64,000 nt of DNA from Candidatus Poribacteria bacterium (GCA_022827625.1 JAJEIE010000028.1:29004-93003); one strand, 5' to 3'; counted from the stretch's first letter, positions 46,656 to 53,681 are shown. The notes: a model not told the origin generated them from the sequence alone. Program-made: numbers and translations.

Positions 46656-46680
46656 TATCGTTCCACTTCGTTTCACGATA
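46656..46680 (-). repeat. Covarying hairpin family, copy 1
   Basis: Minus strand TATCGT[GAAACGAAGTGGA]ACGATA. Confidence 0.75.
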
Positions 46681-46739
46681 GTGTCTGGTGAAGTTAGAAA
46701 CCTTTGAGCACTTGGAGTGGGTTGGAATTGACCGAAAAC

Positions 46740-46764
46740 CACCGTGGAACGTAGTGAAGCGGTG
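46740..46764 (+). repeat. Covarying hairpin family, copy 2
   Basis: CACCGT[GGAACGTAGTGAA]GCGGTG. Confidence 0.75.
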
Positions 46765-46779
46765 CTCAGATTCAATAGT

Positions 46780-48651
46780 TTAAAAGAAACGGTAGGTTTT
46801 AACGATCTCTGAGATGACGCTGGCTCTGTTTTTCCAATTCATGCGAGCAGGTGGGATGAGATAGATGCCGTCAATTTTACATGCGTCTTGATTACGGATG
46901 TCCCGAATTAATTCCAAACACAACCGGATACCGAGTTCGTGTGCGGCAGTATCTCCAAGGTCTCGGAATTTGTCAACGATAAACTGAGGGATGTAGAGTC
47001 CCAAGTTGTCGCGTAGATAGGAGGCACTGCGGAAACTGGTGAGCGGTAGGATGCCGTAAAGCATCTTTATACCGAGATGCTCCGTTGCTTGCTGGGTCCG
47101 AACGATATCTTCATAAGTCCAGACGGGTTGCGTATAGGCGAACCTTGCGCCTTGCTTCACCTTATTTGTGAGATGTTTGACGTGGGGTTGCAGGTTCTCA
47201 GCAACCGTGAAACCGCCGCCGTAATAGAAACCACACGGATCACCAATAGATGAACCGTCAGCAAGTTCACCTTGATTCAGACGTGCAATGAGTTTCATCA
47301 ATTGAACGGCACCGCGGACATCTGGGACGAGGCTCGCCGCTTCATAGGGACCTGCTTTTGGATGGTCGCCAGATAGCGCAACAATGCCCCGAATACCCAA
47401 CGCCTCCGCTTCAAGTAAATGCGATTGCATACTAATGAGATTCCGCGAGCGGGTTGTCCAATGGATGAGCGTCGGGATTTGCGTTGTCTGCTGAAGTCGG
47501 TACGCCGTCCCGACGGCTCCAATATTCACGGCAGCCCCGGAATTGTCAGTTACATCAAACAGATCAACACCGATGGCAGCGAGATTTTTCCCCTCGCGCA
47601 ACAAGGCTCGAAATTGTGGAAATGTATTGGCACGCATCTCAACACTTACAATCTGGGCGCGCGTTTCAAATACCTGTTGCACAGGATTATCCGTCAAGAC
47701 TTTCGACGTTGCGCGAATCTTTGGAAGGACGAAGATGCGTTGTTGCCGTTCAACAGGTTCACGTTCTGTAACAACCTGACGGATTTTCGCCGTATATGCG
47801 GGGGTCGTGCCGCAGCAACCCCCAATCATGTTCGCGCCAAGTTCAATCAATTTTCCGACGTAGTCACTAAAAACTTCTGCCTCGACTGTATAAGAGAGTG
47901 CCACCTCGCCCTGTTCTACTCTCGGATTACCAGCGTTAGGTTGTACAACGATAGGCACCTTGATAACAGGGGCAAGGAGCTCCATCGCCTCGACCAAGTC
48001 GTGTGGACCGCGGCAATTGACCCCGACTGCGTGTGCGCCGAGTTGTTCAAGCTCTTGGGCAAAGACACGGACATCCACCCCGGCACCGACTGTGCCGCCT
48101 GAAACGCCACTAATTTCAACGACGACAGGGACATCGTAAGTGAGTGCTTGCTTCGTGGCGATTTCCGCTTGTTTGGGAGAAACGAAAGTCTCAAGGACGA
48201 GTAGATCAACGCCTTCATCAACAAGGACATCCATTTGCTCTTTGAAGATGCGTCGGACTGCCTTTGTTGAGGGCAGTGTGGTATCTAAGGTTTGGAAAGC
48301 GATCGGTCCAACGGAACCGGCTACATAGCAAGTCTCCGGCACAGCAGCACGTGCAAGTCTCACCCCGCTTCTATTAATTTCTTCAACCTGCTCAGCCAAC
48401 CCGTGAACAGCTAACGCTTCTCTGTTCGCCTGATAGGTATTGGTTTGAATAACATCGGCACCGGCAGCAGCGTAGGCACGGTGAACCATTGCTACCTTCT
48501 CGGCATGTTCTGTAGAGATATTACAAGCATCAACACATTGTAGATACGCTGGTACCTGTTTACGGAGTTCCGTTCCGATAGCACCATCACACACCAAAAT
48601 CTGACGCGTAAGGGTATCTATGAAGTTGTCTTTTTTTAAAATCGTAGCCAT
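46780..48651 (-). CDS. Bifunctional homocysteine S-methyltransferase / 5,10-methylenetetrahydrofolate reductase
   Basis: N-terminal Hcy domain (LVCDGAIGTELRKQ, MIGGCCGTTPAYTAKI) and C-terminal MTHFR domain (SVEMRANTFPQ, GIRGIVALSGDHP, MLYGILPLTSF). Confidence 0.92.
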   Translation of the reverse strand: MATILKKDNFIDTLTRQILVCDGAIGTELRKQVPAYLQCVDACNISTEHAEKVAMVHRAYAAAGADVIQTNTYQANREALAVHGLAEQVEEINRSGVRLARAAVPETCYVAGSVGPIAFQTLDTTLPSTKAVRRIFKEQMDVLVDEGVDLLVLETFVSPKQAEIATKQALTYDVPVVVEISGVSGGTVGAGVDVRVFAQELEQLGAHAVGVNCRGPHDLVEAMELLAPVIKVPIVVQPNAGNPRVEQGEVALSYTVEAEVFSDYVGKLIELGANMIGGCCGTTPAYTAKIRQVVTEREPVERQQRIFVLPKIRATSKVLTDNPVQQVFETRAQIVSVEMRANTFPQFRALLREGKNLAAIGVDLFDVTDNSGAAVNIGAVGTAYRLQQTTQIPTLIHWTTRSRNLISMQSHLLEAEALGIRGIVALSGDHPKAGPYEAASLVPDVRGAVQLMKLIARLNQGELADGSSIGDPCGFYYGGGFTVAENLQPHVKHLTNKVKQGARFAYTQPVWTYEDIVRTQQATEHLGIKMLYGILPLTSFRSASYLRDNLGLYIPQFIVDKFRDLGDTAAHELGIRLCLELIRDIRNQDACKIDGIYLIPPARMNWKNRASVISEIVKTYRFF

Positions 48652-48707
48652 CTAAGAGAGAAAAGCGCGCCGATGAAGCGCGCCTCTCCATGTGTATGAG
48701 ATAGTCC

Positions 48708-51997: not shown

Positions 51998-52032
51998 AAT
52001 TAACGAATTTAACCCCCAAGTATTGATTAACG

Positions 52033-52752
52033 CTATTCATCGTGCGCACTGTTTTTGAAAAGTTTAGTTTTTGAAATAAACCGGTATTTTAAGAGCGTCC
52101 AGGCAGCCAAGATGCCGTCTGACCAGAATCGGAGTTTTTTGCCTTCCTTTTTTGTCCGCGGGAAATAGGAGACCGGTACCTCCTGGATGCCATAGCCTGC
52201 GCGCAAAATTTTCGCTGTAACCTCTGGACAGAATTCAAACCCTTCACATGTTAAATTCAAACGTGTTATCAATTCCGCTGAAAAGGCTTTATAACCCGTA
52301 GATTCATCGGTAATCCGGCACCCATAGAGCAGGTTCGTATACGTCGCGAGCACACGATTGGCAAGGAAGTTATGCAGACTGGCGTTCCCACGACCGTTGA
52401 GAAACCTGGAGCCGTAAACAACTTGCACGTCCTTTTTTTCCAGCGGTTGCAAGAGTTCAGAGATATCGGTCGGGGATAATTCCATGTCTGCATCCTGAAT
52501 AACCACGGCTTCACCCTTTACGTATGGAAGCCCGCTTCGGATAGCGTACCCTTTACCTCTGTTTTCCTCACAATGGACGACGGTTAATTGATGTTTTGCC
52601 CGGAGGCACTCAAGTGCGTCGTATGTGCCATCGGTGGAACCGTCGTTGACGACAATAATCTGTTTTTCGATGGGTAGTGCGCGAAGTGCCTCTAAGACCT
52701 GCCCAATTGTTTGCTCTTCGTTATACGCAGGAATGATTACGGACACTAACAT
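52033..52752 (-). CDS. Family 2 glycosyltransferase (dolichol-phosphate-mannosyltransferase-like)
   Basis: VSVIIPAYNEEQTIGQVLEALR, VVNDGSTDGTYDAL, GKGYAIRSGL, VIQDADMELSP. Confidence 0.93.
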   Translation of the reverse strand: MLVSVIIPAYNEEQTIGQVLEALRALPIEKQIIVVNDGSTDGTYDALECLRAKHQLTVVHCEENRGKGYAIRSGLPYVKGEAVVIQDADMELSPTDISELLQPLEKKDVQVVYGSRFLNGRGNASLHNFLANRVLATYTNLLYGCRITDESTGYKAFSAELITRLNLTCEGFEFCPEVTAKILRAGYGIQEVPVSYFPRTKKEGKKLRFWSDGILAAWTLLKYRFISKTKLFKNSAHDE

Positions 52753-52779
52753 CGTTCATCACACCTCCGTCGAAGCACG

Positions 52780-53571
52780 TTAGAGCAGTGATTTCACCAT
52801 ACCGCCGTCTACTTGAATCGTTGTCCCGGTTATGTAACTTGCGCGTTCGGATGCGAGAAAAACAACCAACGCTGCGAATTCCGCGGGGTCTCCAATTCTG
52901 CCGAGTGGGATGTCTGCTGTCATCCTTTCGAGTGCCTCATCGAATGTGATCCCTGCTTCTTCCGCACGGACTGTTGCAAGCTGCTGAATACGATCGGTGA
53001 AGATAATACCCGGACAAACATTGTTGACGAGAATTTTATCTGGTGCTAACTCGGTTGCGAGAGTCTTGGCAAAGCCGATTACGCCTGTGCGTGCCATGTT
53101 CGACAACATGAGATTGTCTACAGGTTGCTTGACAGAAACAGAAGTGAGATTGATAATGCGTCCGCCGCCGCGCGCCTGCATTGTCGGGACGACAGCGCGG
53201 CAGAGGTTGATCGTGCTCATTAGGTTTAGATTAACAGCGTCTTGGTAATCCTGTGCGCCGAGGTCGTCGAACCGTCCGGCTCTGGGACCCCCAGCGTTGT
53301 TGACTAAAACATCAATACCACCGAAGTGCTGAATCGCTGTGCTAATGAGGGTTTCAACCTGCTCTGGTTGGCTAACATCGGTCGGTACCGCCAACACTTC
53401 AGAACCTGTCTGGCTACGAATGTCGTCTGCTGTTGTCTCCAGTTCGTCTTTATTTCTTGCACAGATCGTGACCTTCGCCCCTTCCTGTGCCAAGCCGAGG
53501 GCAATTGCGCGTCCCAGTCCTTTGCTTGACGCGCCTACGACTGCTATTTTATCTGTGAGTCCGAGATTCAT
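52780..53571 (-). CDS. SDR family oxidoreductase (FabG-like)
   Basis: VGASSKGLGRAIALGLAQEGAKV, VNNAGGPRAGRFDDL, YITGTTIQVDGGMVKSLL. Confidence 0.93.
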   Translation of the reverse strand: MNLGLTDKIAVVGASSKGLGRAIALGLAQEGAKVTICARNKDELETTADDIRSQTGSEVLAVPTDVSQPEQVETLISTAIQHFGGIDVLVNNAGGPRAGRFDDLGAQDYQDAVNLNLMSTINLCRAVVPTMQARGGGRIINLTSVSVKQPVDNLMLSNMARTGVIGFAKTLATELAPDKILVNNVCPGIIFTDRIQQLATVRAEEAGITFDEALERMTADIPLGRIGDPAEFAALVVFLASERASYITGTTIQVDGGMVKSLL

Positions 53572-53656
53572 TTTTTAACTATAGGCTCCTGGGCATCGCT
53601 CCTCTACAGACATTTCACCCCTACGGGGTTCAGACCCGTTGAAATTGACCAGAAAC

Positions 53657-53681
53657 CATCACGAAACGTAGTGGAGTGATG
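53657..53681 (+). repeat. Covarying hairpin family, copy 3
   Basis: CATCAC[GAAACGTAGTGGA]GTGATG. Confidence 0.75.

Follow-up and report, generated by a model that had tools for sequence, protein, structure and literature searches.

The spacer at 46634–46779 of the window (the whole 64,000-nucleotide stretch of Candidatus Poribacteria DNA analysed here) is filled entirely by a 155-bp element, which runs from the start codon (46633) of a DUF6785/DUF6784 gene to the stop codon (46780–46782) of a homocysteine S-methyltransferase/MTHFR gene. Further copies stand directly upstream of an SDR gene and of an Ldh_2 family gene, both on the minus strand. An earlier note on this DNA had listed three hairpins as three copies of one family; all three are real, with coordinates and strands exactly as given, but the first two are the two arms of the single 155-bp element, and a fourth, long-loop copy had been overlooked. 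The features are as follows, with bit scores from the covariance model R1:

46634–46779, no strand assigned: full-length element, from the sequence, the covariance-model matches at 46633–46698 (minus) and 46722–46787 (plus), and the empty orthologous spacers
46656–46680, minus strand: B-arm hairpin TATCGT[GAAACGAAGTGGA]ACGATA, loop at 46662–46674 (81.8 bits, E = 9e-15)
46634–46655, minus strand: B-arm tail ACCAGAGTTAATAGTTAAAAAA, flush with the ATG (A = 46633), which lies 28 nt past the loop end
46740–46764, plus strand: A-arm hairpin CACCGT[GGAACGTAGTGAA]GCGGTG, loop at 46746–46758 (76.4 bits, E = 1.4e-13)
46765–46787, plus strand: A-arm tail CTCAGATTCAATAGTTTAAAAGA, with the minus-strand TAA stop for the S-methyltransferase/MTHFR gene
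53572–53599, minus strand: 3′ stem arm and tail (GCGATGCCCAGGAGCCTATAGTTAAAAA) of a resident B-arm, flush with the ATG of the SDR gene (52780–53571, minus)
53639–53705, plus strand: A-arm copy nested in the loop of the resident minus-strand B-arm (68.5 bits; comparison with the L121 site)
53657–53681, plus strand: A-arm hairpin CATCAC[GAAACGTAGTGGA]GTGATG, from the sequence
53705–53719, minus strand: 5′ part of the resident B-arm (ACCAGACACCATCGT), separated from the 3′ part by the nested A-arm
56012–56137, minus strand: long-loop copy, its tail flush with the ATG of the Ldh_2 family gene (54942–56012, minus) (30.6 bits; E = 0.0012 in one search, 0.013 in another)

R1 separates A-arms (TTAGAATTAACCGAAAAC-hairpin-tail) from B-arms (TCTGACTTCACCAGAAAC-hairpin-tail). 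In either, an approach of ~35 nt leads to a 6-bp stem whose sequence is free, closed by a fixed 13-nt loop, and an A/T-rich tail of 22 nt follows. It is these tails (about ACCAGATTTAATAGTTAAAAA) that form the inverted ends of the element, TTTTTAAC...GTTAAAAA, and they offer the upstream gene stop codons in two reading frames. Some arms stand alone; others form divergent B-A pairs, whose loop centres lie 84–86 nt apart and whose total length is 153–157 bp in most cases. The flanks described earlier as shared between the loci are genuine parts of one element: ttg[ag]aattgacc belongs to the A-arm and acgat[ag]gtgtctgg to the minus-strand B-arm (CCAGACACYATCGT), the latter intact at 46.66 kb and split at 53.71 kb. 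Long-loop variants have an extra module between GAAACGAA and GTGGA; in L013, L051, L057, and the window copy at 56012–56137, a module close to ATTGTGAGTGATTAGCGAACAATTTGTCTTAGCTTTACATT recurs at this place. As RNA, the element at 46634–46779 has a predicted fold of −40.6 kcal/mol (z = −4.0).

The loop is held fixed while the stem varies. The 5.02-Mb genome of the window contains 69 exact matches to the loop pattern GRAACGWAGTGRA and 2 to its reversed form, and in 50 aligned copies from this genome the six stem pairs are formed in 299/300 cells (99.7%), with 17 different stems around one shared loop and changes on both sides in all six pairs. The covariation score is 0.747, compared with 0.242 in shuffles (0/500 reach the observed score) and ≤0.19 for slid partners, the covariation counts being inflated by the relatedness of the copies. 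Seventeen stems with one broken cell is no pattern of drift, and the selection on structure proposed in the earlier note is supported both by the number of loop copies and by the covariation test; it may act on RNA or on single-stranded DNA, and may benefit either the host or the spread of the element itself. Single arms fold with z-scores of about 0 to −2.7, so that energy alone is insufficient to find the hairpin, and it is covariation that finds it. Loop matches in L055 and L059 are stemless and were rejected as chance matches. Searches against Rfam gave no match over the gathering score in the window save tRNAs, and none at eight loci.

With the covariance model, copies are found in 38/38 genomes of the genus, which belongs to the sponge-associated Poribacteria; the number of scored copies runs from 1 to at least 61, and several genomes have 50 or more. 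Among the other genomes of the phylum, 1/47 has the element (G073), and this lone copy lies flush between an ORF end and an ATG. All or nearly all of these genomes are MAGs, with gene starts taken from simple ORF rules, and the gene adjoining the element is found in Candidatus Poribacteria MAGs. A search of partial coverage found no description of the element in the literature on repeats in Poribacteria.

That the element moves is seen from close relatives, in which the orthologous site may lack any insert, contain unrelated repeats, or be taken up by another element. The spacer at the 46.6-kb site is short and empty in most relatives (e.g., ACCTACCGT, TAGCAATTATTCCGATGCTCGCGATTCGTAAACT, and ATGCAAACTCG in succession), whereas the window has ACCTACCGT, then TTCTTTTAAACTATT...GTTAAAAAA, then ATGCAAACTCG, so that stop codon and spacer have both been replaced; the S-methyltransferase/MTHFR protein ends in ...TYRFF* in the window and in ...TYR* in relatives, where the stop follows directly after ACCTACCGT. 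Other relatives have a different type-1 element (L118) or a type-2 element (L085, L116) at this site. Upstream of the SDR gene, L121 reads CATCGCGAAACGAAGTGGAGCGATG without interruption where the window has the nested A-arm, and the same variety (shared, empty, or differently filled) is met at 30-odd other G000 sites for which up to three relatives were compared. In a BatA/VWA-domain gene (L048:5192–7180), one hairpin arm is inserted in frame and adds ~25 residues (ELVRINPKPLWNEVEQRPDLIVKK); this insertion is common only to G022 (93% identical), absent in six other relatives with a readable site, and the one clear intragenic in-frame case among 66 copies screened. At the compared sites, roughly 9–30 nt of target DNA is replaced, and no target-site duplication was seen at them, although old copies may have lost one. 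At the 46.6-kb site again, upstream of the P0001 orthologue in L067 and L079, type-1 copies have replaced the gene's first codons; a new in-frame ATG likely lies within the 3′ stem there (ACGATGACCAG), and part of the hairpin would then be translated.

Two further observations concern the fillings of such sites. At site A, upstream of the P0001 orthologue in L075–L109, the ATG is immediately preceded by the end of a repeat from an unrelated family (GTTATAAGTTATTAG...AACTGATAACTGACAACTATTAACA), which looks as if this genus might exchange spacers wholesale. Upstream of the SDR gene, the filled sites of L121, L131, L133, L135, L136, L145, and others share a stretch GTGGCGGTG..AAAATTATGGAAATGAGTCAAAAG that is missing from the empty sites; this may be a short ORF or an older insertion that they have in common.

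The tail usually abuts a start codon or a stop codon, in place of the native spacer and Shine-Dalgarno site. An ATG follows 28 nt after the loop in 18/66 loops, against a mean of 1.1 per offset at offsets 60–139; of 86 model matches, 50 face an ATG, 23 a stop codon, and 13 neither, and 38 of the 50 ATG-facing matches fall within 3 nt of one position. Taking the best copies from 27 further genomes gives the same peak (27–29 for 15 of the 23 sense copies), and pattern counts give ATG docking in 33/38 genomes of the genus with zero control matches. Copies that fall short of the ATG often end at a native Shine-Dalgarno site (GGAGG, AAGGAG), and the L020 copy ends just upstream of TTGACA. A Shine-Dalgarno-like 4-mer occurs in 0/13 element-led ORFs, compared with 50% of the remaining 391 ORFs. 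Lack of a Shine-Dalgarno site is not a rule throughout, as AGGAG(G) stands 12–14 nt before the ATG in some tails of other genomes. Arms facing an ATG are more numerous than those facing a stop codon (50 to 23, p = 0.002), and their fit to the model is better than that of all others (p = 0.005), in statistics that count related copies and use simple ORF calls.

The same 13-nt loop occurs in a second type of element, with a 3–4-bp stem, different flanks, and a tail ...CGAACCGCAAGGAAAGTTAAAAATATG that holds the Shine-Dalgarno sequence AAGGA at the proper distance (copies L009, L011, L015, L018, L019, L045, L047, L052, L053, L060, and L061). This tail followed by ATG is present in 38/38 genomes of the genus, with 1 to 46 copies and a control of 0.

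The type-1 element is short and non-coding, with terminal inverted repeats, and its copies are dispersed and insertion-polymorphic, as is expected of a MITE. We consider it probable that each hairpin is an arm of a non-autonomous mobile element, ~155 bp at full length, which is nearly confined to one Poribacteria genus; the earlier note, right as to structural selection, had seen neither the hairpins' nature as arms of a mobile element nor the docking at start and stop codons. Insertions fall mostly in the gaps between ORFs and take the place of the native spacer, so that the tail lies against a start codon, against a stop codon, or against a Shine-Dalgarno site that was kept. In the DNA, the ATG-side arm stands where the next gene would have its own ribosome-binding site, and in a transcript it would be that gene's 5′ leader; its position suggests such a role, with a possible effect on translation, and the excess of ATG-facing arms together with their better model fit suggests that it is transcribed as a leader. 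Movement would need a trans-acting protein that recognises the loop when its stem is paired, in RNA or in single-stranded DNA. The recurrence of the loop in type-2 elements, despite different flanks and tail, points to such a protein, and it would explain the compensatory drift of stems under a frozen loop. Most of the copies that persist would be those in which the tail stands in for the initiation region with the correct spacing, and ATG-facing arms would for this reason outlast the other arm.

On balance, our best reading is a selfish element of MITE/REP type whose ATG-side arm serves as the gene's 5′ leader, and we hold it with some confidence. The flush placement may come from target choice, from selection for spacing, or from template switching at ATG and A-runs; unrelated repeats flush at the same sites favour one of the latter two. 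Unrelated repeats are also ATG-flush, and docking may be a general property of these spacers, not of the element.

Template switching between spacers by microhomology (ATG, stop codons, A-runs) would be recombination, not transposition, and would copy the element along with the start codon. Spacers are indeed replaced, not simply interrupted, no target duplication is seen, junctions lie at ATG, stop, or AAAA, and unrelated repeats have the same junctions; we nevertheless find this route unlikely, since the element is consistently full length with inverted ends and one copy lies in coding sequence, away from any ATG. We also doubt, a little more strongly, that the hairpin is a regulatory RNA leader, bound by a protein or ligand and native to these genes, which would make a regulon of what we take for a mobile element. 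The fixed 28-nt spacing to the ATG, the covarying stem with its fixed loop, and the same loop in the leader-like type 2 with its own AAGGA Shine-Dalgarno site are what such a regulon would have, but the element is absent from orthologous genes of close relatives, 23 covariance-model matches face a stop codon, one copy is within a coding region and another nested in a further copy, and the genes seen are unrelated to one another. Both the pattern of presence and absence and the in-frame copy speak strongly against a regulon of purely vertical descent.

The inverted pairing of the hairpins, their intergenic location, and their genus-specific occurrence also bring to mind REP/BIME repeats, which a RAYT (Y1/HUH) transposase would mobilise as single-stranded hairpins, and Y1_Tnp genes are present in 37/38 genomes. 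Linkage to a transposase, a check proposed in the earlier note, did not emerge for the Y1/HUH genes: no copy lies within 1.5 kb of 30 Y1 loci, none is near the three Y1 genes of the window's own genome, Y1 number and copy number are uncorrelated (rho −0.11), and G012 has 46 copies with no Y1 gene detected. The type-1 stem moreover has no GTAG or CGTC tag, the preceding bases being mostly AAAC/AAAT; the tag and Y1 tests rule out REP identity and RAYT linkage, and movement by this route seems to us very improbable. Sites of the integron attC type, free-stem hairpins ending in GTT core sites beside ORF boundaries, would fit the GTTAAAA/TTTTAAC ends, the position between stop and start codons, and the covarying stems. 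Against them, no integron integrase passes the cut-off (TIGR02249 gives two weak partial matches), as in all 14 control genomes, the sites are single and dispersed in syntenic gene order without cassette arrays, and the tail is GTTAAAA or GTTTAAA, so that the core's last base is A where GTTRRRY requires a pyrimidine. Identity with attC is ruled out by the integrase and core-site tests, and we regard any origin of this kind as barely credible.

By analogy, the mobile element we favour appears to work like a MITE and has features in common with BOX, REP, and RPE elements. Bacterial MITEs (Correia, RUP, ERIC, BOX) are similarly short, non-coding, and mostly intergenic, with inverted ends, tens of copies, and nesting, and BOX elements often provide the stop codon of the neighbouring gene (PMC3049150). 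Unlike them, the element has internal hairpins with a fixed loop and free stems, and a tail at a fixed distance from start codons that replaces the native spacer, and neither a target duplication at the compared sites nor a parent IS in the ~790 kb read was found. REP families are defined by a GTAG or CGTC tag and have alternative complementary stem residues within families (PMC3733652). The element shares with REP/BIME and RAYT systems the small hairpins, inverted pairs, and alternative complementary stem residues, and differs in its longer unit, 22-nt tail, conserved 13-nt loop, and, in type 1, the lack of the tag and of RAYT linkage. Rickettsia palindromic elements (RPE) are about 150 bp, palindromic, and able to insert in frame inside ORFs (PMC10969869). 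Size and palindromic form are alike, and the capacity for in-frame ORF insertion may be as well; here only one of the screened copies is intragenic, and the main location is flush between ORFs. With attC the likeness lies in folded sites, freely covarying stems, GTT-type ends, and inter-ORF position, all characteristic of these integron sites; the difference is that here there is no integrase or cassette array and the neighbouring genes stay put.

A bolder reading, for which we would claim only a modest chance, is that of a mobile intercistronic spacer, which insertion machinery or selection would place exactly between a stop and the next start, which would supply both the stop codon and a Shine-Dalgarno-free hairpin leader, and whose loop one trans-acting protein would read in all copies and in type 2. 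If this is true, the translation starts of many genes would be rewired by transposition under one loop-binding factor. Short repeats are commonly dismissed as intergenic clutter. Here, close genomes have different leaders at one and the same gene, the spacer up to the ATG being replaced by this or another hairpin element, and translation-start turnover by mobile elements is directly testable; the hairpin is also a case of a structured site in which the stem evolves freely and the loop is frozen. No transposase or other mover was found, and no pair of copies was recognised to surround a transposase across ~790 kb of the window's genome, fully read in stretches selected for their exact loop matches. 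The complete genome G021 (5.06 Mb) has one model match only, compared with dozens in its sister species, and is a natural near-null for finding the mover.
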